This document shows, piece by piece, positions 1,455-41,608 of a DNA stretch of 41,608 nt. Numbering within the stretch: position 1 is the stretch's first letter; each line of letters begins with the position of its first letter. The stretch is from an uncultured Burkholderiales bacterium. Its GTDB lineage: Bacteria > Pseudomonadota > Gammaproteobacteria > Burkholderiales > Burkholderiaceae_C. The stretch spans positions 1 through 41,608 of the forward strand of contig CAIKNE010000057.1 of assembly GCA_903828695.1 (NCBI GenBank). Reading direction: 5' to 3'. Both the position numbers and the translations under genes were made by a program. The notes beneath the pieces were generated by a model. That model was not told the origin of the DNA. It saw only the letters and a program-made list of their open reading frames with translations, and ran no database searches.

Positions 1455-2297
1455 ATGCCAATTATGAACTTCCTCTCCATACGCTCAGGCATAAAGCTAC
1501 TCCTGCTGTGCATCCTAGGCATTCATGCATTGACGGGCTCGGCTCAAACTCCACAGCCCAAAGACTCCACAGACGCTGCGCTGGCGCAGTACCGTCAAAT
1601 GCTTCAAGAGGCCAATCCTGCTGATTTGTATGCGGCTAAGGGACAAGCCCTTTGGGCACAAGCGCGTGGTCCTAAAGCTCAGTCCCTTCGGACCTGTGAT
1701 CTGGGCTTAGGTCCTGGCGTTGTGAAGGGGGCTTGGGTTCGATTGCCTCGGTATTTCTCAGACACTCGACGGGTTCAGGACCTGGAGTCAAGGTTGCTCA
1801 CCTGTATGCATGACATTCAAGGCTTTGACGAGCAAGAACTGATTGACCTGGATTTCTCCAAGGGCGAGCGCTTAACTATTGCACAACTAGCTGCTTACGT
1901 GTCTTCAGAGTCGCAAGGCATGCCTTTTAACGTGCCCCAAACTAACCCATTTGAGCGAGAAATGTACGCTATTGGACAAGCGCTTTTTTACATGCGAGCG
2001 GGCACACATGATTTTTCTTGTGCAAGTTGCCATACCCAAGACGGGCGAAGAATTCGCCTGCAAGACTTGCCGAATCTGAGCACTCCTGCTGGTGCTGGGT
2101 TTGCATTTGGAACATGGCCAGCTTACAGGATTTCAACTGGATCTATTTGGAGCATGCAACAGCGTTTAGCTGATTGCTACAGGCAACAGCGCTTTCCAAA
2201 GCCAAAGTTCGTGAGTCCAGCCACAATTGCATTGTCTGTCTACTTGGGCGTTAATGCGAGTGGGCAAGTTGCGGATGCTCCTGGTTTGAAAAGATAA
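1455..2297 (+). CDS. soxA: SoxA, diheme-family cytochrome of SoxXA (single CXXCH)
   Basis: SoxA is the catalytic subunit of the SoxXA cytochrome, which oxidatively couples thiosulfate to the SoxY cysteine. The 280-residue precursor has a Sec signal ending near GSAQ. It has one heme motif, CASCH (C189, C192, H193), and the conserved active-site cysteine C241 in RLADCYRQQR, which ligates the catalytic heme as a persulfide in this family. The N-terminal half keeps cysteines (CDLGLGPG and LLTCM) but no second CXXCH, so this is the monoheme-type SoxA that has lost heme 1. AAAGAG precedes ATG 1455; ATG 1464 is an alternative. Its stop overlaps the soxX start by one base (TAATG), suggesting translational coupling. 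Confidence 0.95.
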   Translation: MPIMNFLSIRSGIKLLLLCILGIHALTGSAQTPQPKDSTDAALAQYRQMLQEANPADLYAAKGQALWAQARGPKAQSLRTCDLGLGPGVVKGAWVRLPRYFSDTRRVQDLESRLLTCMHDIQGFDEQELIDLDFSKGERLTIAQLAAYVSSESQGMPFNVPQTNPFEREMYAIGQALFYMRAGTHDFSCASCHTQDGRRIRLQDLPNLSTPAGAGFAFGTWPAYRISTGSIWSMQQRLADCYRQQRFPKPKFVSPATIALSVYLGVNASGQVADAPGLKR

Positions 2298-3160
2298 TGT
2301 TTAAATTAGCAATGAATTCTCTTTTTAGAAAATGTCAATCCTCTAACTTTACGCAGGTAAACACAGGGTACGGCGGGGTTCGTGTGAGACACTCAAAAAA
2401 ATATCTGTTGGGTGTGATGCTAGCCCTAGCGCAACCGCTCTTAACGAGTTGTTCTATCTTTGATCAAAACACGTCTGGGTCAGATCTGGATTCCCGTTTA
2501 AGAGAACAAACACAAAACGTTGTTGCGCTGTCCTTTGAGCCTAAAGGGCAGGCAGGGTTGGACCGTTTAAAACAAGACCGCACGCAAGAATTTTGTTCAA
2601 CACAACGAGCTTTTAAGGGGGTAGCTTCGGCTGAAAATGCTTTGGACCCTCAATCTCCGCAAAATAATTCAATCTCCCAATTGACAGAGCAATTAAGACT
2701 GGAAAATCTTGCATTGATCCAGCAACCCAAAGATAGTAATTATGTCGGAGACTTTAAAAGAGGTGAGCTGATCGCCCAAGACGGACGAGGCAAGACCTGG
2801 ACTGACCCCCAAGGCTCTGCGAACGGGGGCAATTGTTATAACTGTCATAGGCTCAGTAAGAACGAGATCTCCTATGGAACACTTGGCCCAAGCCTATATC
2901 AATACGGTAAATTAAGGGGCATCAGCAGTTTGGACGTCTACTTGAATAAGGTCAAAGAAGGCGCCAGTGACCCTCTTATTCAGTACACCTGGGGTGTGCT
3001 AATGAATTCCAAAGCTTATGATCTTTGCACCGTCATGCCCAGATTTGGTGTGACGTTCAACGCTTCAGCTCACGAACAAAACTCACCTATCTTGACTCAA
3101 GAGCAAATCAAGGACTTAATGTCTTTGCTGTTGGATCCCCGCTCACCGGTTAATGATTGA
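2297..3160 (+). CDS. soxX: SoxX, lipoprotein-type cytochrome c subunit of SoxXA
   Basis: SoxX is the small electron-accepting subunit of SoxXA. The C-terminal 110 residues are a class I cytochrome c domain with NCYNCHR (CXXCH near residue 180) and the SoxX-like YGTLGPSLYQYGKLRG segment. A methionine in CTVMPRFG is a likely distal ligand. The product (287 aa) is longer than simple SoxX proteins: residues about 50-150 form a hydrophilic, Q/N/S-rich spacer after a lipobox (LLTSC), suggesting a membrane-tethered lipoprotein. From ATG 2297 the signal peptide begins unusually late. A GTG at 2384, directly before RHSKKYLLGVML, gives a better lipoprotein signal and may be the true start, but the coupled ATG overlaps the soxA stop. 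Confidence 0.88.
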   Translation: MFKLAMNSLFRKCQSSNFTQVNTGYGGVRVRHSKKYLLGVMLALAQPLLTSCSIFDQNTSGSDLDSRLREQTQNVVALSFEPKGQAGLDRLKQDRTQEFCSTQRAFKGVASAENALDPQSPQNNSISQLTEQLRLENLALIQQPKDSNYVGDFKRGELIAQDGRGKTWTDPQGSANGGNCYNCHRLSKNEISYGTLGPSLYQYGKLRGISSLDVYLNKVKEGASDPLIQYTWGVLMNSKAYDLCTVMPRFGVTFNASAHEQNSPILTQEQIKDLMSLLLDPRSPVND

Positions 3161-3339
3161 TCAACGCCTTGGGTCTTAGCGCCAAGCTCCCTGGCAATTG
3201 CCGTGCTTTATTGCACAGATCCATAGCCTATTGAGCCTTCAAAAGCTTAAGTCCCTCTGCCGTATATTGGTAAATACGGGTTGAATTGGGAAAAAAATGT
3301 GGCACAGTGATCTGCAATCAAAAGCATAGGGAGTTGGTG

Positions 3340-4506
3340 ATGAAAACCGATCAGGAAGTGAGCCGTATGAATAATTCTGCAGTTAAGGGTGTGGCAACTG
3401 TTTCTAGTGTGGATGCTGATTTAAAAATTCAGCAAGCGCCGAAGGCTTGTGTCAGTTGTTCTCACTTAACGCGGCGAAGGGGTTTATTGACAGGACTGCT
3501 CGGGGCGGGTCTTTTTGCTGGCGCTGAGATGATGGGACGCGCGCCCTTCGGGCGGGAAGCGGCTGCTCAGAGCACCAACAACGACTCGCTCTTAATTGAT
3601 GTTCACCACCATGTGTTCGCTCCTGATTATGTGAGGGAGTTGGAGAGTGCTAATTTGGCAGAAAACCCTGCGCGCAAATGGTCACTCAGCAAGAGTATGG
3701 ATGACATGGATAAGGCGGGTGTAAGTAGGGTGTTCACCTCTCCGACCACGCCTGCAGCAAGTTTTGGGGACGCTACGATGCGCGCGCGCGTTGCTCGGAT
3801 GTGCAATGAGTATGCGGCAAAATTGGCGCATGATTATCCCAACCGGTTTGGTTTTTTTGCAACCCTGCCGATGTTGGATGTTGAGGCGAGTTTGGCAGAA
3901 ATTGCTTACAGCATGGATGTACTCAAGGCCAATGGGATCGCTATGCTCACCAGTTACGACGGGAAGTGGCTCGGAGACGCCTCCTTTGCGCCCATCATGG
4001 AGGAGATCAACCGGCGCAAACTGGTTGTTTATACACACCCAGCCAATCCTAAATGCTGCTCTGGATTGCAAAGCGGTATACCCGGCTCGACCATTGAATT
4101 TGCGACCGACACGACCCGAACTATTACGAGTTTGTTGTTTTCTGGTGCTGCCCAAAAATACAAGGACATTCGCTTTATCTTCTCTCACGCAGGAGGGACG
4201 ATGCCCTTTTTGATTGAGCGCCTCACCATGCTTCCTACTTTGAATGCAGAATTTGGTAAAAAAATAACCCCAGAGCAAGTTCTGCAACTGATTCGAGGCT
4301 TTTATTACGACACAGCGCAGGCGGCTCACCCTGGTGCATTGTTGTCCTTACTCAATTTGGTTGATGTCTCACAGGTTCTGTTTGGCACCGATTACCCCTA
4401 TAGAACCTCGCTGGATCATGTGCAGGGTCTGGCGAATTACGGTTTTAGTAAGGGCGATTTAGCCTCGATTCGGTATAAAAACGCTCAAAAATTGCTTAAA
4501 ATTTAA
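3340..4506 (+). CDS. Tat-exported amidohydrolase (amidohydrolase_2 family)
   Basis: A TIM-barrel metal-dependent amidohydrolase or decarboxylase of the ACMSD-like amidohydrolase_2 family. Visible motifs are the metal ligands in LIDVHHHVF near residue 89, a histidine in VYTHPAN, a second in FIFSHAGG, and the catalytic aspartate in LFGTDYPYRT. The N-terminus has a twin-arginine motif (TRRRGLLTG) and a hydrophobic stretch running to AAAQS, so it is predicted to be periplasmic via Tat. That is less common for this mostly cytoplasmic family. ATG 3340 is preferred because AGGGAG lies about 8 nt upstream; an in-frame ATG at 3286 would add 18 residues with a weaker site. It follows soxX after about 180 nt, so it may or may not be in the sox operon. 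The substrate is unknown. Confidence 0.85.
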   Translation: MKTDQEVSRMNNSAVKGVATVSSVDADLKIQQAPKACVSCSHLTRRRGLLTGLLGAGLFAGAEMMGRAPFGREAAAQSTNNDSLLIDVHHHVFAPDYVRELESANLAENPARKWSLSKSMDDMDKAGVSRVFTSPTTPAASFGDATMRARVARMCNEYAAKLAHDYPNRFGFFATLPMLDVEASLAEIAYSMDVLKANGIAMLTSYDGKWLGDASFAPIMEEINRRKLVVYTHPANPKCCSGLQSGIPGSTIEFATDTTRTITSLLFSGAAQKYKDIRFIFSHAGGTMPFLIERLTMLPTLNAEFGKKITPEQVLQLIRGFYYDTAQAAHPGALLSLLNLVDVSQVLFGTDYPYRTSLDHVQGLANYGFSKGDLASIRYKNAQKLLKI

Positions 4507-4741
4507 GCGGAATTAGCTGTGCGGCACAAAAAAGGAATCCGAATCCAACGCTATGTAGACGATATGCCCATGAAAGCCCATGGTCAATAAAATATCACTT
4601 TAAACGGTCGTGTGGCGTCGTTCAACAATTGCTACAATCACACCCAGTTAGAAAGCTAGGGTAACCCCTGGATTGTTGTTGGCCATATCAACTTAGGGAT
4701 AACTCCTTAATTTTTTGATTCTTTTTTCTTAGGCAATTAAC

Positions 4742-5917
4742 GTGAACAAGATGATCGATCTTTCCAAAAAGCTGGCCTCAGGCCTTTTATTCATTGGTGC
4801 TTGGGTCTCAAGTGCTGCATGGGCGGTAAATGATTTACCTGGAGGTCCTGGTGTTCGTGAATTGAATATCCAAATGCCAGCTACCAAAATCGCTGAAGAG
4901 CAGGTTTGGTTGCATTGGTTCATGATGGTCATTTGTACGGTGATTTTTATTGCTGTGTTCGGAGTTATGTTTTACTCCATACTCAAGCACCGTAAATCAG
5001 TGGGACATAAAGCCGCAAATTTCCATGATTCCGTAAAAGTAGAAATTGCTTGGACTATTATTCCTTTCATCATTGTTATTTTCATGGCTCTGCCTGCAAC
5101 CAAGGCTGTTGTGGCTGAGAAAGATACCTCCAATGCCGACCTTACCATTAAGGCAACCGGACAGCAGTGGAAATGGGGTTACGATTACTTGAAGGGTGAG
5201 GGTGAGGGTATTTCTTTTGTTTCAACCCTTGATAACGATCAGCGCGTCATGTCCAACAACGGCGCCAAAGGTGTTGATATTGATGACTACTTGCTCAAAG
5301 TAGACAATCCATTGGTCGTGCCTGTAGGTAAGAAAGTCCGGATCATCACGACGTCAACTGATGTCATTCACGCGTTCGCAGTTCCTTCATTTGGTATCAA
5401 GCAAGATGCGATTCCCGGATTTGTTCGCGATACCTGGTTCAGAGCGGAGCGGGTCGGTGACTTTCATGGGCAGTGTCAAGAGCTGTGCGGCAAAGAGCAC
5501 GCCTACATGCCTATTGATGTCAAAGTTGTGAGTCAAGAAGACTATACAAAATGGGTTGGTGAGCAACAACAAAAATTAGCATCCATGAAGGACGATCCCA
5601 ACAAAGTATGGTCTAAAGAAGACTTGCTTGCTAGGGGCTCTAAAGTCTACGCGGCCAATTGCCAAGTCTGTCACCAGCCCAACGGCAAAGGTGGTGGTCC
5701 AGTTAAGCCTTTGGACGGCGCAGCTGTAGTCTTGAACGCTGATAAAACAAAGCAAATCATGGTCTTGTTGAATGGGCAAAACAACGGCGCTATGCCAAGT
5801 TGGAAGGCTTTGAGCGATACAGATTTGGCGGCTGTCATCAGCTTTACAAAGAACAACTGGTCCAATAAAACAGATCAGATCGTTCAGCCATCAGAAGTTT
5901 TAGCAAACCGTAAATAA
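4742..5917 (+). CDS. coxB: Cytochrome c oxidase subunit II with fused cytochrome c (caa3-type)
   Basis: Subunit II accepts electrons from cytochrome c at its CuA centre and passes them to subunit I. The 391-residue product has a signal peptide, two membrane helices (about residues 57-85 and 98-120), and a periplasmic cupredoxin domain. The CuA ligands are visible: H in VIHAFAVPSFG, then C245, E247, C249, H253 and M256 in CQELCGKEHAYM. A cytochrome c domain follows, with CQVCH (C307, C310, H311), making it a caa3-like fusion. The start is a GTG with AGG 8 nt upstream; an ATG lies three codons in. coxA begins 38 nt later. The preceding 235-nt gap probably carries the operon promoter, but I see no convincing -35/-10 pair. 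Confidence 0.96.
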   Translation: MNKMIDLSKKLASGLLFIGAWVSSAAWAVNDLPGGPGVRELNIQMPATKIAEEQVWLHWFMMVICTVIFIAVFGVMFYSILKHRKSVGHKAANFHDSVKVEIAWTIIPFIIVIFMALPATKAVVAEKDTSNADLTIKATGQQWKWGYDYLKGEGEGISFVSTLDNDQRVMSNNGAKGVDIDDYLLKVDNPLVVPVGKKVRIITTSTDVIHAFAVPSFGIKQDAIPGFVRDTWFRAERVGDFHGQCQELCGKEHAYMPIDVKVVSQEDYTKWVGEQQQKLASMKDDPNKVWSKEDLLARGSKVYAANCQVCHQPNGKGGGPVKPLDGAAVVLNADKTKQIMVLLNGQNNGAMPSWKALSDTDLAAVISFTKNNWSNKTDQIVQPSEVLANRK

Positions 5918-5955
5918 TTGAAATTTTTAAGCATTAGTCTTTAAAGGAAATCAGC

Positions 5956-7584
5956 ATGAGCGCAGTTCTTGACCCCCATGGGCATATTGCAGGCGATCAC
6001 GATCATGATCACCACGGAGCACCTCACGGTTGGCGTCGTTGGGTGTTTGCGACCAACCACAAAGATATTGGAACCCTTTATCTTTTATTCGCATTCACCA
6101 TGTTCTTAATCGGTGGTGTGCTTGCTTTGTTAATCCGTGCAGAGCTCTTCAAGCCAGGTCTTCAAATTGTCAATCCTGAGTTGTTCAATCAACTCACAAC
6201 GATGCATGGATTGATCATGGTCTTTGGTGCGATCATGCCGGCCTTTGTGGGTTTTGCCAATTGGATGGTTCCCCTGCAAATTGGTGCCTCAGACATGGCC
6301 TTTGCGAGGATGAATAACTTCAGCTTTTGGCTGATGATTCCTGCGGCACTCATGTTGGCTACATCTTTCTTTGTGCCAGGCGGCGCCCCCTCTGGCGGCT
6401 GGACTTTGTATGCGCCCCTAACGCTACAAATGGGGCCCTCAATGGACTCCTCTATTTTCGCGTTGCACTTGTTGGGTGCAAGCTCCATCATGGGCTCTAT
6501 TAACATTATTGTCACCATCTTGAACATGCGGGCTCCTGGCATGACCTTGATGAAGATGCCCATGTTCGTATGGACTTGGTTGATTACGGCCTATTTGTTG
6601 ATTGCGGTTATGCCTGTGCTGGCTGGTGCAATCACGATGACGCTTACAGATCGTCATTTCGGTACTACTTTCTTTAACCCAGCAGGCGGCGGTGATCCAG
6701 TGATGTTCCAACACATCTTTTGGTTCTTTGGTCACCCAGAGGTATACATTATGATTTTGCCGGCATTCGGCATTATTAGCCAAATTATTCCGGCCTTTGC
6801 GCGTAAGAAATTGTTCGGTTATGCATCAATGGTGTATGCAACATCTTCAATTGCCATTTTGTCATTCATTGTTTGGGCTCACCACATGTATGCCACAGGT
6901 ATGCCTGTGACTGGACAGCTTTTCTTTATGTATGCAACTATGTTGATCTCTGTCCCAACAGGCGTGAAGGTCTTTAATTGGGTTGCTACGATGTGGAAAG
7001 GATCCATGACGTTTGAGACGCCAATGCTTTTTGCGGTAGGGTTTATCTTTGTGTTTACGATGGGCGGTTTCACGGGGCTGATTTGCTCAATGGCTCCCAT
7101 TGACATGCAGATACAAGACACTTACTACGTTGTGGCTCACTTTCACTATGTTTTAGTGGCTGGTTCACTCTTCTCTATGTTTGCCGGTTTTTACTATTGG
7201 AGTCCAAAATGGACTGGCGTGATGTACAACGAAACACGCGGCAAGATCCATTTCTGGTGGACCATCATTGCATTTAACGTTACTTTCTTCCCCATGCACT
7301 TTTTGGGATTGGCGGGTATGCCACGTCGTTACGCTGACTACCCGATGCAGTTCGCTGACTTCAATGCGCTTGCGTCAGTGGGTGCATTTGCTTTCGGTCT
7401 CGCTCAGGTCTACTTCTTCATCTTTGTGGTGTTTCCAGTTCTTCGTGGTCACGGTGAAAAAGCACCTCAAAGACCTTGGGACGGCGCTGAAGGGTTGGAG
7501 TGGGAAGTACCTTCTCCTGCACCTTTCCACACTTATGAGAATCCTCCTAAGTTGGATGCAACCGCCACTAAGGTTATTGGTTAA
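5956..7584 (+). CDS. coxA: Cytochrome c oxidase subunit I
   Basis: The catalytic subunit reduces O2 to water at the heme a3-CuB site and pumps protons. The 542-residue product has about twelve membrane helices and the family signatures: WVFATNHKDIGTLYL at the start, HPEVY (H260 to Y264, the CuB histidine cross-linked to tyrosine), HH at 309-310 (CuB ligands), and HFHYVL near residue 395 (heme a and a3 axial ligands). The first 25 residues are histidine- and aspartate-rich (GDHDHDHHGAPHG), a feature seen in some proteobacterial CoxA proteins and plausibly metal-binding. It is preceded by AAAGGAA. It forms an operon with coxB upstream and a 36-aa gene, then ctaG, downstream. Confidence 0.98.
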   Translation: MSAVLDPHGHIAGDHDHDHHGAPHGWRRWVFATNHKDIGTLYLLFAFTMFLIGGVLALLIRAELFKPGLQIVNPELFNQLTTMHGLIMVFGAIMPAFVGFANWMVPLQIGASDMAFARMNNFSFWLMIPAALMLATSFFVPGGAPSGGWTLYAPLTLQMGPSMDSSIFALHLLGASSIMGSINIIVTILNMRAPGMTLMKMPMFVWTWLITAYLLIAVMPVLAGAITMTLTDRHFGTTFFNPAGGGDPVMFQHIFWFFGHPEVYIMILPAFGIISQIIPAFARKKLFGYASMVYATSSIAILSFIVWAHHMYATGMPVTGQLFFMYATMLISVPTGVKVFNWVATMWKGSMTFETPMLFAVGFIFVFTMGGFTGLICSMAPIDMQIQDTYYVVAHFHYVLVAGSLFSMFAGFYYWSPKWTGVMYNETRGKIHFWWTIIAFNVTFFPMHFLGLAGMPRRYADYPMQFADFNALASVGAFAFGLAQVYFFIFVVFPVLRGHGEKAPQRPWDGAEGLEWEVPSPAPFHTYENPPKLDATATKVIG

Positions 7585-34676: not shown

Positions 34677-35684
34677 ATGAATATGCTTGATGAACGTGCC
34701 AAGTTTTTGTTAAAAACACTGGTCGAGCGCTACATTGCCGACGGGCAACCTGTGGCCTCTCGTACTTTGTCTAAAACCTCTGGCATTGAGCTCTCTCCGG
34801 CAACGATTAGAAACGTGATGGCTGATTTAGAGGACTTGGGTCTGATTACGAGTCCTCATACCTCAGCCGGTAGGATCCCCACATCTAGGGGGTACAGACT
34901 CTTTGTTGACACGATGCTGACCACCAAACTGGACGTTCTTGAGACGCCCGTTTTGCAATCCGATCAGCCGCAAAAAATTATTTCAAACGCCGCCAATTTG
35001 TTGTCGAGTCTCTCACACTTTGTGGGTGTTGTCATGGTTCCTAAGCGAGGCATGGTTTTTCGTCACATTGAGTTCATGAGACTGTCCGAAAAAAGGCTCC
35101 TGGTTATTATTGTTTCTCCTGACGGCGATGTACAAAATAGGGTTATTCTGACGGAATCGGACTACTCAGCACAGCAGCTCATTGAAACCTCAAACTACCT
35201 GAATTCTAATTACTCCGGCATGAGCTTTGATTTGGTTCGGGAGAAACTGAAGGCTGAGATGGATTCCCTTAGGGGGGAGATTGGTAAGTTAATGCAGGCA
35301 GCGGTCCAGGTTAGCACAGAGGTCCTAACGCAGGCCCAAGACGAGGTCATCATCAGTGGTGAGCGCAATTTGTTGTCGGTCAGCGATTTTTCGGGAGATT
35401 TGGGGCAACTTAGGCGCGCTTTTGATTTATTTGAGCAAAAGGCGCAATTGCTTCAACTTATGGAGAGCTCTGCTAAGGCAGATGGCGTGCGTATTTATAT
35501 AGGTGGAGAGAGTCAGGTCGTGCCAGTAGAGGAGTTATCCGTGGTCAGCGCAAAATATGAGATGGACGGTCAAGTTGTTGGAACATTAGGCGTAATTGGA
35601 CCAACAAGAATGCACTACGAGCGGATGATCCAAATTGTTGACCTTACCTCAAAGCTTTTGACAAATGCGCTGAGTCACAAGTAA
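34677..35684 (+). CDS. hrcA: Heat-inducible transcription repressor HrcA
   Basis: HrcA represses heat-shock genes by binding CIRCE and depends on GroE for folding in studied bacteria. The 335-residue product has the N-terminal winged helix ([52 protein letters not shown]) and the family effector domain ending [17 protein letters not shown]. Length is typical. It diverges from nadK. A CIRCE copy is seen in this window only upstream of rpoH; none is visible before hrcA itself. Confidence 0.97.
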
Positions 35685-35749: not shown

Positions 35750-36037
35750 GGGCCTATAGCTCAGTTGGTTAGAGCAGAGGACTCATAGCGAGAGTTGTGC
35801 CATAGACGTGGAAACTGTTTATGGGATGGTGTCAAATTCGGAGAAAGCTAAAGGTAGAAATATCCAAGCTAACGCCGAGCCAAGCTTCAGTATGAAAGTG
35901 CTGTTGAAGGTGTAGAGACTAGACGGCACCCATCTAAGTTGAGCAATCAATATGATGAAGGCATAGTCCAGGGAGTTGTGAAAGCAACACAAACCGGAAT
36001 CCTTTGGTCCCTGGTTCGAGTCCAGGTGGGCCCACCA
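35750..36037 (+). tRNA. tRNA-Ile (CAU, lysidine type) interrupted by a group I intron
   Basis: Exons 35750-35786 and 35998-36037 join into a perfect 77-nt cloverleaf: acceptor GGGCCTA/TGGGCCC, D arm with AGTTGGTTA, anticodon loop CTCATAA, T arm CCTGG/CCAGG, encoded CCA. The anticodon CAT together with the GACTCATAATC and TGGTC features matches tRNA-Ile2, whose C34 is converted to lysidine by TilS, rather than initiator or elongator tRNA-Met. The intron sits directly after anticodon position 36. The spacing of TTGACT (35708) to TAAAAT (35735) upstream is too long for a standard promoter. A strong terminator follows. Confidence 0.95.
35787..35997 (+). ncRNA. Group I intron (IC3-like ribozyme) in tRNA-Ile
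   Basis: A 211-nt, ORF-less intron. The 5' splice site follows U (CAU) and the intron ends in G, as the class requires. Pairings: the guide GTG (35797-35799) to exon CAU (P1); P2 at 35800-35824 with a GGAAAC tetraloop cap; P3 GGTGTC (35828) with GGCACC (35925); P4 TTCGG with CCGAG; P7 GACTA (35917) with TAGTC (35964); P8 CATC/GATG; P9 closed by GAAA. The core segments GAAGGTGTAGAGACTAGACG and GAAGGCATAGTCCAGGGAG match those I recall for the Azoarcus tRNA-Ile(CAU) intron (about 205 nt), the model small self-splicing ribozyme. All core elements are intact, so self-splicing is expected. Confidence 0.95.
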
Positions 36038-36047
36038 ATAAAATCAA

Positions 36048-36078
36048 TGACTTAGCGTGAGAACGCTAGGTCATTTTT
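36048..36078 (+). terminator. Intrinsic terminator of the tRNA-Ile gene
   Basis: An 11-bp stem (TGACTTAGCGT / ACGCTAGGTCA, one G-U pair) with a GAGA loop, followed by TTTTT. It begins 10 nt after the encoded CCA. Confidence 0.9.
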
Positions 36079-36085
36079 CATTAAT

Positions 36086-36102
36086 GTGTAGTCGGTGTGT
36101 AG
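36086..36102 (+). repeat. Repeated GTGTAG motif beside the tRNA (integrase-arm-like)
   Basis: GTGTAG-TCG-GTGTGTAG lies just past the tRNA terminator. Its inner 11 bases, GTCGGTGTGTA, recur in inverted orientation at 41461-41471. Short direct repeats of this kind often lie between a tRNA attachment site and an integrase gene. No integrase is present in this window. Confidence 0.4.
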
Positions 36103-36235
36103 TAAATATCACCGCTATACCCCAATAGATATATGGATCTAGCTTGGAGCAATCAACTATTTCTTGCCCGTGGTTTATAGGTGCTCAAGGACTACTATCG
36201 GCCAATAGCAGCCATCCACCTAGCCCATACATGTT

Positions 36236-37177
36236 TTAATCTAAATCTTTATCACTAGTCGTTTTTAAGGCGGCAATTATCTTTTCCATATTGATATTAG
36301 GTATGCAAAGCCCTATGAATTCATAGGTGAAGCCTCGCAAAAAGTAGCCTTTTCTTAATGCAATCCGGGTCGTATTGGTTTCAAAAAGGTTTCCTGCATC
36401 TAGCAAACTTAGCTTGGTATCTCTCTCTGCTTGATAGGCCATGGATGCAATGATGCCGATACCAAGACCCAACTCTACATATGTTTTGATGACGTCAGCA
36501 TCTAGAGCGGACATTACGATGTCAGGCGTAATACCAGCTTTGGAGAAAGTTTCATCTACCGATTTTCGACCAGTAAATCCCTCGTGATAAGTCACTATTG
36601 GATATTCAGCTATATCTTCAAGGGATAAATTCTTCTTACCCTCAAGAGGATGACCCTTTGGCACAACAACAGTGTGGTGCCAACTGTAATACGGAAAGGT
36701 GACTAGCTCTGGATATTGATCAAGCGCCTCAGTAGCAATTCCAATATCTGCTCGACCCTCTAATAGCATTTGCACAATTTCGTGTGGACTGCCTTGATGA
36801 AGCGCTAGATGAACTTTTGGAAAACGTTGCTTAAATTGGCTGACCACATTTGGCAAGGCGTAACGCGCTTGAGTATGGGTAGTGGCAATTGTTAACTGAC
36901 CTTTATCGCTCTGACTAAATTGCTCACCCAATTGCTTGATGTTTTTTGCATCCAGCAATATTCTTTCAACAATAGTGAGGAGCTCTTTACCGGGTTCTGT
37001 AAGGCCAAGAAGTCGTTTGCCCTTGCGAACAAAGAGCTCAATGCCAAGTTCATCCTCCAAATCTAAGATATGTTTGCTTACACCGGATTGTGAAGTGGCC
37101 AATGCGTTGCCAACCTCGGTGAGGTTGAAGTTGCGGCGAACTGTTTCGCGGATGATGCGGAGTTGTTGAAAGTTCAT
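36236..37177 (-). CDS. cysB: CysB-type LysR regulator
   Basis: CysB activates sulfate-assimilation genes in response to N-acetylserine and is inhibited by sulfide or thiosulfate in enterics. The 313-residue product has an N-terminal helix-turn-helix (FNLTEVGNALATSQSGVSKHILDLEDELG), and the CysB/Cbl-specific ligand motif TIATTHTQARYALP near residue 100, followed by HQGSPHEIVQMLLEGRADIGIATE. It is the last gene of the minus-strand sulfate unit, 17 nt after cysA. Cbl is an alternative label, but CysB is more likely next to cysTWA-sbp. Confidence 0.9.
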   Translation of the reverse strand: MNFQQLRIIRETVRRNFNLTEVGNALATSQSGVSKHILDLEDELGIELFVRKGKRLLGLTEPGKELLTIVERILLDAKNIKQLGEQFSQSDKGQLTIATTHTQARYALPNVVSQFKQRFPKVHLALHQGSPHEIVQMLLEGRADIGIATEALDQYPELVTFPYYSWHHTVVVPKGHPLEGKKNLSLEDIAEYPIVTYHEGFTGRKSVDETFSKAGITPDIVMSALDADVIKTYVELGLGIGIIASMAYQAERDTKLSLLDAGNLFETNTTRIALRKGYFLRGFTYEFIGLCIPNINMEKIIAALKTTSDKDLD

Positions 37178-37194
37178 ACTTAATTATCTATGGT

Positions 37195-38304
37195 TTAGCT
37201 GTTGCTTAGTGATGTTGTTGGCTTAGTATTTTCAAAAACGCGCAACTGCGAAGGAATGATGCGAACCCGCTGGCCTTCTGCTAACCCGCGCTTACTTACT
37301 TCAGACCTAGGTAGTTCTACTTCATAATAATGCGGGACTGTTTTTGAGTCAGAGCTTGCACTCGAAGAGAGTTCAATTCTAGAATTTAGGCCAAAAGACA
37401 GAATGCGATCAATATGGGCAATGACCCCTTCATTACTGTCATTTTCACTAACAATATCCAACTCATGTGGTCTAGCAAAAGCCAACACAGCTGCGCCCTG
37501 CGCAATCGATTCGGATTGGTCATGGTTTAACTTATGTTTACCTACTTGAATACCTTCGCCTTCTACACGTCCATGGAATAAATTCACATTTCCGAGAAAA
37601 CCATAGACAAATGGTGTAGCAGGATGGTCATAAACTTCATCTGGGCTGCCAATTTGCTCGATATTGCCTTGATTCATGAGGACGACACGATCAGCAACTT
37701 CAAGAGCCTCTTCTTGATCGTGGGTTACAAAGATGGAGGTGATGTGTAATTCGTCATGAAGTTTACGCAACCAGCGACGCAGCTCTTTACGAACTTTGGC
37801 ATCTAAGGCGCCAAATGGTTCGTCTAACAGCAATACTTTTGGTTCTACAGCTAAGGCTCGTGCTAAGGCAATTCTTTGGCGTTGTCCGCCCGAGAGCTGA
37901 GCTGGAAAACGATCATGTAACCAGTCCAGTTGTACAAGATTTAAAAGCTCATGTACTTTATGGGCAATCTCATCTTTACTTGGACGCTCTTTACGACTCT
38001 TCACATTCAAACCAAAAGCAACGTTGTCAAAAACAGTCATGTGCTTAAAGAGGGCGTAGTGCTGAAATACAAAGCCAACTTGACGGTCACGTACTGGGGT
38101 TAAGGAAGTATCAACGCTATCCAAAATGATATTGCCGCTATCTGGGGTTTCAAGGCCCGCAATGATTCGCAGTAAGGTGGTTTTGCCACAACCTGATGGC
38201 CCCAGTAATGCAACCAGTTCGCCAGATGGAAAGTCTAAAGAAACATTGTTTAGGGCAACAAAGTTACCAAATGATTTGCTAACGTTTTTAACTTCAATAC
38301 TCAT
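37195..38304 (-). CDS. cysA: Sulfate/thiosulfate ABC transporter ATPase
   Basis: CysA powers sulfate import. The 369-residue product has Walker A ([18 protein letters not shown]), Q-loop ([24 protein letters not shown]), ABC signature ([15 protein letters not shown]), Walker B ([11 protein letters not shown]) and H-loop ([15 protein letters not shown]). A C-terminal TOBE-like domain follows. The [18 protein letters not shown] segment is typical of sulfate CysA. Its ATG overlaps the cysW stop (ATGA). Confidence 0.96.
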
Positions 38305-39176
38305 AATGGTCCTTCGATTGCGGGCACTGCATTTGTTTCGGATTTAAGGTGCCACTCAACATAGGTTTTTGCAGCTAAAGTGAGAAGCGCCAAAAGAGCA
38401 AGTAATGATGCAACTGCAAAAGCAGCTACATAGTTGTATTCGTTATAGAGAATTTCTACTTGAAGTGGGATGGTGTTGGTATAGCCGCGAATGTGGCCAG
38501 ATACAACGGATACCGCACCAAATTCACCCATGGCTCGGGCGTTACAAAGAATGACGCCGTACAGCAAGCCCCATTTAATATTGGGTAGCGTGACGTACCA
38601 AAAGGTTTGCCAACCGCTTGCGCCTAATACGGTTGCAGCCTCTTCCTCTTCACGGCCTTGAGCCTCCATTAACGGAATAAGCTCACGAGCAACAAATGGG
38701 AAAGTAACAAAAATCGTTGCCAGAATAATTCCGGGAACTGCAAAAATAATCCTGATGTCATGGTCAGTAAGCCAAGTCCCAAACCAGCCTTGTGCGCCAA
38801 ACACTAGTACAAAAATCAAGCCCGCAATGACTGGTGACACTGAAAAGGGAATATCAATCAGCGTGATTATAAGATGTTTGCCTTTGAAATCAAACTTGGC
38901 AATAGCCCACGAGGCTGCAACACCAAATACTAAGTTAAGTAGTACCGCCACTCCAGCGGCAAGTAAGGTGAGTTTGATGGCGGACCAGGTATCAGGCTCT
39001 GCGATCGCCTTGAAATAGTACACCCAGCCTTTATAGAGGGCTTCGGTAAACACAGAGAACAATGGTAATAGCAAAAAGATACCAAAAAAACTTAAGGATA
39101 AAAACAATATAAACGTTTTAACAATGGTCGAATCTCTGGTTGCAGAGCTACGTTCAAATCGTGTGGTGTTGCTCAT
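38301..39176 (-). CDS. cysW: Sulfate ABC transporter permease CysW
   Basis: CysW forms the membrane channel with CysT. From the ATG at 39176, with GGGAGGG upstream, the product is 291 residues with six hydrophobic helices and the EAA loop ([32 protein letters not shown]) that contacts Cys[17 protein letters not shown] is family-typical. The start overlaps the cysT stop by one base (TAATG). An in-frame ATG at 39209 is less likely because it lies inside cysT and has no site. Confidence 0.95.
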
Positions 39177-40012
39177 TAACGAACCCTCCCAGTTTTCTTG
39201 GTAGCCCATGCCTGAAGGCCATTAATAGCCAACAGAAGGAGTAAGGAGATGAGAAGCATTACAGAAGCAATTGCTGTTGCACCCGCATAGTCATACTGCT
39301 CTAGTTTGGTAATAATGATCAAAGGTGTGATTTCGGAAACCATTGGGATGTTACCGGCGATAAAGATCACAGACCCATATTCACCAACTGCGCGGGCAAA
39401 GGCGAGGGCAAAACCAGTTAATAGTGCGGGGAATAAAATTGGCAACACCACTTTTTTAAATGTTTGCCAGCGGCTTGCACCTAGGCTGGCAGCAGCCTCT
39501 TCTAGTTCAATCTCAATCTCTTCTAAGATGGGTTGTACTGTTCTCACTACAAAAGGTAATCCAATAAAAATCAACGCTACAAGAACACCCCAAGGCGTAA
39601 AAGCAATCTTAATACCGAGAGGCTCGAGGTATTGGCCTATCCAACCATTTTTAGAATAAAGCGCTGCAAGTGCAATGCCAGTAACAGCAGTTGGCAGGGC
39701 AAATGGAAGATCTACCAAAGCATCTACTAGGTTTTTGCCAATGAAGGTATAACGAACTAAAGCCCAAGCAAGCAACAAACCAAAGATCGCATTAATGAGG
39801 CCAGCAAGCAAGGCCATGCCGAAACTCAGTCGATAGGAAGCCATTACCCGTGGCGCAGTCACAGCATCAAGAAAGGCGGGAAATGTGAGACTGGTCGTTT
39901 TTAATACCACCGCAGACAGCGGAATTAAAACAATGATGGATAGATAAACGATGGTGTAACCAAGCGATAAACCAAAACCGGGAAAGATACTATTTTTCTT
40001 TGCACTAGACAT
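39176..40012 (-). CDS. cysT: Sulfate ABC transporter permease CysT (CysU)
   Basis: The partner permease of CysW. The 278-residue product has six predicted helices, LPFALPTAVTGIALAALYS, the EAA loop (EEAAASLGASRWQTFKKVVLPILFPALLTGFALAFARAVGEYGS) and a C-terminal GATAIASVMLLISLLLLLAING helix. It is separated from sbp by 154 nt that include a terminator-like hairpin, so its expression is probably lower than that of the binding protein. Confidence 0.95.
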   Translation of the reverse strand: MSSAKKNSIFPGFGLSLGYTIVYLSIIVLIPLSAVVLKTTSLTFPAFLDAVTAPRVMASYRLSFGMALLAGLINAIFGLLLAWALVRYTFIGKNLVDALVDLPFALPTAVTGIALAALYSKNGWIGQYLEPLGIKIAFTPWGVLVALIFIGLPFVVRTVQPILEEIEIELEEAAASLGASRWQTFKKVVLPILFPALLTGFALAFARAVGEYGSVIFIAGNIPMVSEITPLIIITKLEQYDYAGATAIASVMLLISLLLLLAINGLQAWATKKTGRVR

Positions 40013-40105
40013 CTGTACATTCTAGGGTTGACCCTCATAAAAGGGAAACAAGAAAAGATCATTAACTTATATGCAAAATGAATATAAGCATTATGAAGAC
40101 GGAAA

Positions 40106-40135
40106 AACAGCCCAGAGAGTGTTGTCTGGGCTGTT
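40106..40135 (-). terminator. Partial terminator between sbp and cysT
   Basis: A perfect 11-bp stem (AACAGCCCAGA / TCTGGGCTGTT) with an 8-nt loop. On the minus strand it is followed by TTTTT. It lies just after the sbp stop, which would let most transcripts end after the binding-protein gene while some read on into cysTWA. Confidence 0.85.
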
Positions 40136-40166
40136 AAGGGTTAATGCATAAGTTAGCGTCTAAAGC

Positions 40167-41171
40167 TTATTTAACAATAATCTCATCGAATACACCACCA
40201 TCATTAAAGTGAGTCCTCTGGGCTTTTTGCCAACCACCAAACACTTGATCGATGGTTACTAGTTTCACTTTAGCGAATTGATTGGCATATTTCGCTGCCA
40301 CTTTAGGATCACGCGGACGGTAATAGTTTTGGGCCGCAATCTCTTGACCAATTGGGCTGTAAAGCTTTTCCAAATAGGCGGTAGCTACTTTTCGAGTACC
40401 TTTTTTATCCACCACCTTGTCTACAACGGCGACCGGTGGTTCAGCAAGAATGGATATTGAAGGGGTAACAATTTCAAACTTATCTGGACCCAATTCTTTG
40501 ACTGATAAGTAGGCTTCATTTTCCCAGGCAATCAATACATCGCCAATACCACGCTCTGTAAATGTCGTAGTTGATCCACGAGCGCCAGAGTCTAATACCT
40601 TCACGTTGGCAAACAGTTTTTTGACAAACTCTTTAGCTTTGACCTCGTTACCGCCAGGTTGTTTTAAGACGTAGGCCCAAGCTGCTAAGTAGTTCCAGCG
40701 TGCCCCACCAGAAGTTTTTGGGTTGGGCGTAATGACCTCAATACCTGGTTTTACCAAGTCATTCCAATCTTTAATGCCTTTTGGATTGCCCTTGCGTACC
40801 AAGAATACGATAGTGGAAGTGTAGGGAGAGGAGTTATCTTTAAATTTCTTTTGCCAATCTTTAGCTACAAGACCTTTTTCCGCTAAAACATCGATGTCAT
40901 AAGCCAAGGCTAGGGTCACTACATCAGCATCCAAGCCATCTAATACTGCACGTGCTTGTTTACCTGATCCGCCGTGAGATTGTTTAACGGAAAGATCTTC
41001 GCCAGTTTGTTTTTTCCAATCTGGGATGAAGAATTTGTCATAGTCTTGATACAGTTCGCGAGTTGGATCGTAGGAGACATTCAAGATTGTTGTCTCTGCA
41101 AGGCTAGTAGTTATCAAGCCAATCCCCAAAAAGAGGGTTGCCGCTACTTTACTTAAATTAATTCGTTTCAT
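40167..41171 (-). CDS. sbp: Periplasmic sulfate-binding protein
   Basis: It captures sulfate or thiosulfate for the CysTWA importer. The 334-residue product has a Sec signal ([13 protein letters not shown], cut before ETT), then the sulfate-binding signature region: [51 protein letters not shown] and [25 protein letters not shown] precedes the ATG. Sbp and CysP cannot be separated with certainty; Sbp is favoured by the pattern. It is the first gene of the minus-strand unit. Confidence 0.95.
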
Positions 41172-41352
41172 TGCGCTTCCTTTTTAACAATAGATCTAAT
41201 GTAGAAGGGAAGGCTTATGGTGTGAAGCAAGAAAAAGTGGATTGTTTATCTTTAAATAGAATTAGCGAAGCAGGTTCGTCCGCTATGGGTCGTTAGCTGC
41301 CGTCCAGCAAATTGAGCTTTACTTAAAGTAACGCTCATTTACTCAAAACTAC

Positions 41353-41387
41353 TTTGGAGCAACGAGGTGTTAGATGGTTGCTCCAAA
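41353..41387. repeat. Perfect 11-bp inverted repeat
   Basis: TTTGGAGCAAC and GTTGCTCCAAA around a 13-nt loop. It is directly followed by a 7-bp hairpin, CTTTGGT/ACCAAAG, at 41392-41412. Neither fits a simple terminator with a T-run. Function unknown. Confidence 0.6.
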
Positions 41388-41442
41388 AATCCTTTGGTAT
41401 TGAAAACCAAAGACCGGGAGACTGCCTCTTTAAATCCATGAA

Positions 41443-41471
41443 TTTGCTTACACATTTGCTTACACACCGAC
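41443..41471 (-). repeat. Tandem TTTGCTTACACA with inverted arm-like motif
   Basis: Two identical, adjacent 12-mers (TTTGCTTACACA) run into TACACACCGAC, the exact reverse complement of the GTCGGTGTGTA next to the tRNA at 36091. The arrangement resembles the direct-repeat arm sites of tyrosine integrases at an island end. Confidence 0.45.
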
Positions 41472-41528
41472 ACTGACCACCCGCAGACCTCCTGTTTATA
41501 TGGGTCTACCTTGGGCTTCTGCTCTCAT

Positions 41529-41608
41529 AACGAAAGTTGTGCCATAGACGTGGAAACTGTTTATGGGGGGGGTGTCAAATTCGGAGAAAGCTAAAGGTAG
41601 AAATATCC
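41529..41608 (+). ncRNA. Partial second copy of the group I intron (cut by the window end)
   Basis: These 80 nt align with the first 79 nt of the tRNA-Ile intron: two G-to-A changes near the 5' end, and GGGATGG replaced by eight G. The rest is identical, including the guide GTG, the whole of P2 with its GAAA loop, and the 5' strands of P3 and P4. It is preceded by CTCAT, the same last five bases as the tRNA 5' exon, but no tRNA 5' half is recognisable upstream. The 3' part is beyond the window. Confidence 0.85.

Follow-up and report, generated by a model that had tools for sequence, protein, structure and literature searches.

The question raised by this locus is how a group I intron can come to lie outside any recognisable tRNA gene. 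The window (the whole stretch of DNA analysed, 41,608 bp) is one entire contig (C57) from the 3.02 Mb draft genome of an uncultured Burkholderiales bacterium. It contains a tRNA-Ile(CAU) gene with an intron and, at its right end, a second copy of that intron cut by the contig end. The first-pass annotation had read the second copy alternatively as a remnant, as an intron transposed by reverse splicing or as an artefact of assembly at a repeat. Based on comparison with related genomes, it is very probable that positions 41316–41608 form an attR-type junction, at which the end of an integrative element meets the 3' part, now displaced, of a tRNA-Ile gene with an intron.

The intact gene lies 3' of hrcA (34677–35684, forward strand; from the list of open reading frames, named from its translation), and in some relatives, such as L061 and L067, an hrcA homologue precedes a tRNA-Ile gene that lacks the intron. 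ARAGORN, with introns allowed, places the gene at 35750–36037 and labels its CAT anticodon Met. Exon 1 (35750–35786) ends in CTCAT and is followed by an intron of 211 nucleotides (35787–35997) and by exon 2 (35998–36037), all on the forward strand. A default tRNA scan missed this gene. The Rfam model RF00028 matches positions 35774–35990 with 47.6 bits (E = 6.0e-11), just under the gathering score of 50, and full displaced copies in relatives exceed that cut-off (53.4 bits in L262 and 54.2 bits in L114). On inspection, no open frame able to serve as an endonuclease was noticed in the 211-nt intron.

The intact tRNA is followed by arm-like repeats in inverted orientation (36084–36109, reverse strand). 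Five genes on the reverse strand (36236–41171) then fill the interval between the two intron copies; read from the translations in the list of open reading frames, they encode a LysR-type regulator, three sulfate ABC transporter components and a sulfate-binding protein. This region is only ~65–75% identical to its best matches in other Limnohabitans genomes, of which 52 of 84 have a match; the low identity would fit foreign cargo. The profile of the element integrase family described below finds no match anywhere in the window, these five genes included, and searches with the arm repeats and an exon 1 pattern found neither a split exon 1 nor a left arm at the present locus. The interval 36038–41523 was considered as a complete island; this was dropped because no integrase or left arm was found in it and because a close relative (G054) has the intron without the same 3' flank.

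The second copy comprises the first 80 nucleotides of the intron (41529–41608, forward strand), as defined by alignment to the intact one, and exon 2 would fall past position 41608. Together with the preceding CTCAT it was recovered at 94% identity to 35782–35865 in a search of the 3.02 Mb genome (E = 3.6e-30 and 2.6e-30). The columns of the alignment of the two copies are identical at 80 of 85 positions, and the longest exact repeated suffix is 38 nucleotides. The copies are 5.7 kb apart in the same orientation. The end copy differs in having AACGAAAG in place of AGCGAGAG and a run of eight G where the other has GGGATGG. These results bear out several statements of the first-pass annotation, namely the identity of about 94%, the CTCAT preceding the intron at both places and the clustering of the changes at these two sites. 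It had also stated that no tRNA 5' half precedes the second copy, and none was found before 41524. A whole-tRNA query matches the draft genome in two places only, the intact gene and the window end, and the exon 1 pattern occurs only in the intact tRNA-Ile gene. An Rfam search of the last 609 bp, in which the end copy is cut by the contig end, gave no score at E values up to 1.

In place of exon 1, the second copy is preceded by a 208-bp right end, or arm, of an integrative element (41316–41523, forward strand), defined by its matches in three other genomes. The identities are 185/210 in G051, 158/182 in Polynucleobacter sp. AP-Kaivos-20-H2 and 191/216 in Polynucleobacter sinensis, and the P. 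sinensis version of the right end is matched in 100 of 186 Polynucleobacter genomes. Positions 41182–41608 used as a query against 84 Limnohabitans genomes gave matches in 20, most of them to the intron only. In G051, 215 bp of the window's flank are present at 88% identity and continue via CTCATAA straight into exon 2, with neither intron nor exon 1. The arm contains the direct repeats GCTTACACATTTGCTTACACAC (41446–41467, forward strand), which end 57 bp before CTCAT. This spacing is 57 bp in 69 of 73 distinct right ends, 56 bp in three and 58 bp in one, and it holds in all three cases that lead into an intron, the window included. A probable core half-site, GGGCTTCTGCT (41513–41523, forward strand), has an inverted partner, GAAAGAAGCCC, in junctions between tandem elements. 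The two inverted half-sites GGGCTTCTGCT and GAAAGAAGCCC flank CTCATAA exactly in three of the five tandem junctions printed, and the other two differ in the first half-site. A second occurrence of AATCCTTTGG, the word with which exon 2 starts, is present inside the right arm (41388–41399) and is followed by a short inverted repeat.

Alignment limits on both sides map the joint to CTCATAA (41524–41530, forward strand), which is the tRNA anticodon loop and the likely 7-bp crossover. Element-side alignments to the window end at 41530 (53 cases), 41531 (19) or 41536 (30), with 16 more ending earlier (41412–41476) and five running on into the intron at the P. sinensis and AP-Kaivos loci; intron-side alignments begin at 41524 in 134 of 143, and in all of these tallies overlapping loci are counted more than once. 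The crossover would thus fall in the anticodon loop. Intact introns of this kind mostly read CTCATAG or CTCATGG. The sequence CTCATAACG is found in two of six displaced introns (the window and AP-Kaivos) versus none of 44 distinct intact ones; its A is the footprint that the CTCATAA loop of an element would leave, although these counts are small.

The first-pass annotation had called for a search of related genomes for the same insertion, and two examples were identified. In P. sinensis MWH-HuW1 (L262) and in Polynucleobacter sp. AP-Kaivos-20-H2 (L257), a right end of the window's type leads through CTCATA into the whole intron, the displaced copy running on into exon 2, and exon 1 is lacking. 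The P. sinensis joint can be traced to two parents. One, matching nucleotides 1–1998 at 99.5% identity, is an element end at another place in that genome; the other, matching nucleotides 1993–6507 (4515 bp) at 98.5%, is a P. yangtzensis locus at which the intron resides in an intact tRNA. The two parents overlap in CTCATA only. Elsewhere in P. sinensis (L263, 8262–8999), two consecutive split copies of exon 1, each followed by arm repeats, precede a complete intron-bearing tRNA, an arrangement that reads as nested insertions. The only tRNA-Ile found in P. brandtiae is intronless, and a fragment consisting of intron and exon 2 lies ~12 kb downstream, past two exon 2 fragments; this would fit loss of the intron from the working gene through later insertions. 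A match in G039 was considered as an orthologous site and rejected, being, by eye, a decayed fragment of intron and exon 2 beside an arm.

Both ends of an element at one tRNA gene can be seen in Limnohabitans sp. B9-3 (G002). Exon 1 is interrupted there after CTCATAATC and followed by a left arm whose repeats are similar. Next come a complete tRNA-Ile gene with the intron, an integrase of 472 amino acids and further open reading frames, and then the right arm and the native exon 2, which has no intron. The left side is the same in G006. Several relatives have an intact intronless tRNA-Ile (e.g. G001, G003, G005 and G027), and in G028 the downstream context is that of the intronless relatives, with exon 2 present and exon 1 missing. 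Integrase relatives lie beside the tRNA in G002, G006 and G051. Matches to PF00589 are above the cut-off for L040 and L031 and below it for L054, and a Pfam search matched no family for the integrases of L039, L146 and L259. The motifs RHTYAT and E(R/Q)HYS (ERHYS or EQHYS), which we take to be the catalytic-residue motifs of tyrosine recombinases, align in all five integrases compared. By their Phage_integrase domain and these motifs, the integrases of the relatives can be classed as tyrosine recombinases. An iterative profile recovers 21 open reading frames of the family in the collected loci, including those of Limnohabitans, Polynucleobacter and several other proteobacterial genomes.

The present genome has an apparently full-length member of this family on contig C27 (L054, G000:C27:1-6418) and a truncated one on C41. 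In our own reading, the former follows the apparent 5' half of another tRNA, whose last bases are the loop ATCATAA; the family may therefore use several CAU tRNAs. A more distant integrase (L276, G091:C56, 17291–18706; E = 5e-100) occurs behind another split exon 1 that continues as AAAGTTGG, so that this tRNA may also serve a second type of integrase. The intron word is also held by 28 stretches of viral contigs, ~10 of them, by eye, in tRNA-like genes; the integrase profile gave no match among the open reading frames of the 28 stretches. Apparent tRNA-Ile-type genes with related group I introns are found on the IMG/VR contigs L198, L204, L207, L209, L211, L213, L214, L218 and L219.

Several features can be read directly from the sequences: the element end is conserved, the joint spans 7 bp and recurs in two other genomes with the intron entire and exon 2 behind it, the P. 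sinensis joint has two parents, and in Polynucleobacter the intron is linked with element-borne tRNA genes. We propose that an element with a tyrosine integrase would enter an intron-bearing tRNA-Ile(CAU) by recombination in CTCATAA, just 5' of the intron. The integrase would thereby make the joint, and the right end of the element would become joined to the displaced intron and, presumably, past the contig end, to exon 2. The elements often bring a tRNA-Ile of their own as a replacement, which usually includes a copy of the intron, so that a functional tRNA would be kept and the intron would spread as a passenger of elements attacking its own host gene. Recombination between exon 1 copies would be one way to arrive at an intact tRNA behind hrcA with neither split exon 1 nor left arm.

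The frequency of such junctions was assessed among 82 distinct ones (from 89 loci). The right end continues into exon 2 in 43, into a left arm in 13, into the intron in three (the window, AP-Kaivos and P. sinensis) and into other sequence in 23. By eye, 19 of the 23 others continue into AACCAGAGAACC or close variants (15 of 73 in a stricter count). This continuation was tried as a second left arm and rejected, the arm repeats being in the expected interval in 0 of 15. The sequence CTCATAACCAGAGAACCTAAA follows the right end in many Polynucleobacter genomes (e.g. L330, L335, L362 and L369), with no arm repeats in the expected interval. Other types of right end, absent from the count of 82, also precede displaced introns (L114, L120 and L135).

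The intron itself is closely associated with elements. Of 81 Polynucleobacter genomes sampled, 69 yielded a total of 115 exon 1 ends, of which 41 were intronless, 40 had the intron and 34 were split. A split exon 1 occurs upstream of 24 of the 40 intron-bearing tRNA-Ile genes (at 197–256 bp) versus three of the 41 intronless ones (Fisher p = 3.4e-7, a value that overstates the certainty because the genomes are related). Left-arm repeats are found upstream of 12 of the other 16 intron-bearing genes and a right-arm core upstream of one, the check for arms having been made as a set on the intron-bearing genes. Thus, element sequence or a split tRNA 5' half immediately precedes 37 of the 40 intron-bearing genes. 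Neither split exon 1 nor arm was found upstream of the remaining three, one of which (L419) has less than 200 bp of upstream sequence. These observations suggest that the intron travels on, and is displaced by, elements inserting where the intron sits.

It is conceivable, if on balance unlikely, that the intron is in addition an immunity device of the elements. By interrupting the attachment site in the replacement tRNA-Ile, it would leave rivals to hit intronless tRNAs or to stack in tandem; splicing would keep the tRNA working, and the elements would be the vehicle of the intron. If so, arm–intron joints such as that in the window would be breakthroughs. The displaced fragments in 16 genomes, picked for holding the intron and with complete genes tallied apart, bear on this idea. 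Five fragments have the whole or nearly whole intron, 12 matches begin inside its 3' half (query positions 111–197) and 25 begin at the exon 2 boundary, one of the latter being an intact intronless gene. Some fragments follow right-end sequences unlike that of the window. Displacement of intron-bearing copies would thus be less rare than the three of 82 junctions imply, which makes the immunity reading less likely.

Reverse splicing would invert the order of events. An element would first enter an intronless tRNA, giving an arm–CTCAT–exon 2 junction, and intron RNA originating from the intact tRNA would then reverse-splice after CAU and be copied into DNA. Suitable targets are common, as the 43 junctions into exon 2 attest, and such a route would explain both the closeness of the two introns of the present genome and the absence of a split exon 1. 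However, in P. sinensis the 4.5 kb downstream, together with the intron, match an intact intron-bearing tRNA locus, and the element loop, unlike reverse splicing, predicts the A of CTCATAACG seen in two independent displaced copies. Reverse splicing therefore appears improbable; for the copy in the present genome it would not be needed, although a slight chance of it is left.

Even less probable is a tandem duplication or a homologous exchange between tRNA loci that set the second intron beside unrelated DNA. The proximity and common orientation of the copies agree with this, as do the recombinable exon 2 repeats that are frequent in Polynucleobacter (the 25 matches in 16 genomes mentioned above), but the conserved right end, its fixed spacing and a breakpoint that in many genomes falls at the anticodon loop would be left unexplained. 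A chimera assembled at a repeat, to which the position at a contig end, the shared exact stretch of 38 nucleotides and the eight-G run in place of the GGGATGG of other copies might point, is very unlikely because the arm–CTCATA–intron joint recurs, with full intron and exon 2, inside contigs of two named genomes. Among the three readings of the first-pass annotation, the remnant is thus the one retained, as a displaced 3' part of a tRNA gene after site-specific integration; the artefact falls with the recurrence of the joint, and reverse splicing is superfluous given the two long parents of the P. sinensis joint.

Islands at anticodon loops are of a known kind. As outlined in the Islander paper (PMC4383910), a tRNA gene split by a tyrosine integrase is made whole again by the island, and the displaced fragment marks the far end, which resembles the present elements; 2083 islands there have anticodon-centred sites. 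The present case differs from those islands in that a group I intron is part of both the target and the displaced fragment, and in that the tRNA on many elements is complete and intron-bearing, not just a 3' fragment. The word 'intron' is absent from the main text of PMC4383910. Like the present intron, that of the Azoarcus pre-tRNA-Ile, as described in portions of PMC3984707, is a group I intron in tRNA-Ile; here, however, the intron-bearing tRNA resides on integrative elements in many Polynucleobacter genomes. For intron mobility, the same portions give homing endonucleases and reverse splicing as routes and make no mention of 'integrase', and a paper known by its title in the reference list of PMC3984707 concerns an intron moving together with tRNA DNA, as proposed here. 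How small group I introns of tRNA genes pass between bacteria is poorly understood. In the Azoarcus intron, CAU and GUG presumably pair. An intron that rides on elements targeting the same tRNA at the same spot would make its mobility directly testable.

A proposal by Randau and Soll, as recounted in part in PMC4390854, holds that disrupted tRNA genes protect the host against integration. The two cases have in common an intron at the target of integration, but here the gene is mostly borne by elements, and in the examples identified insertion took place despite the intron; the system would offer a natural setting in which to test whether introns shield tRNA genes from integration. Searches of the open-licence PMC literature, judged by titles and the starts of abstracts, listed no item on both group I introns and integrases at tRNA genes, and they gave no precedent for a tRNA group I intron carried on, or displaced by, elements that target its host tRNA. 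Stray copies of the intron and pieces of tRNA-Ile in Polynucleobacter and Limnohabitans could be used as markers of element ends.

Comparison with the close relative G054 indicates a further step at the intact gene. The 5' flank (286/293) and the intron (207/211) are nearly identical in G054 and the present genome, and the 3' flanks are unrelated. The 3' flank was therefore changed without the intron, which one insertion at the anticodon loop would not by itself produce. In the present genome this flank resembles (111/126 identical) the one behind the tRNA-Ile of P. brandtiae, a gene that has no intron and a different upstream neighbour, and the 3' flank of G054 resembles the displaced fragment of P. 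sinensis (57/59). These likenesses across Limnohabitans and Polynucleobacter suggest that DNA downstream of the tRNA is exchanged between genera, here with the intron unchanged, and recombination between exon 2 copies is a likely extra step. Both introns of the present genome have CATAGACG, at which position G054 has CATATACG, and in a comparison limited to 80 nucleotides the displaced copy has GAAAG in common with G054. The shared CATAGACG hints at gene conversion or a local source.

Two further arrangements were observed in relatives. Limnohabitans parvus II-B4 has two intron-bearing tRNA-Ile genes ~16 kb apart on one contig (L172 and L193), one of them near an integrase open reading frame. 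Upstream of displaced fragments in L264, L276, L278 and L281, small open reading frames end right at the joint, and by eye these recall a toxin–antitoxin protein and a STAS-like domain.
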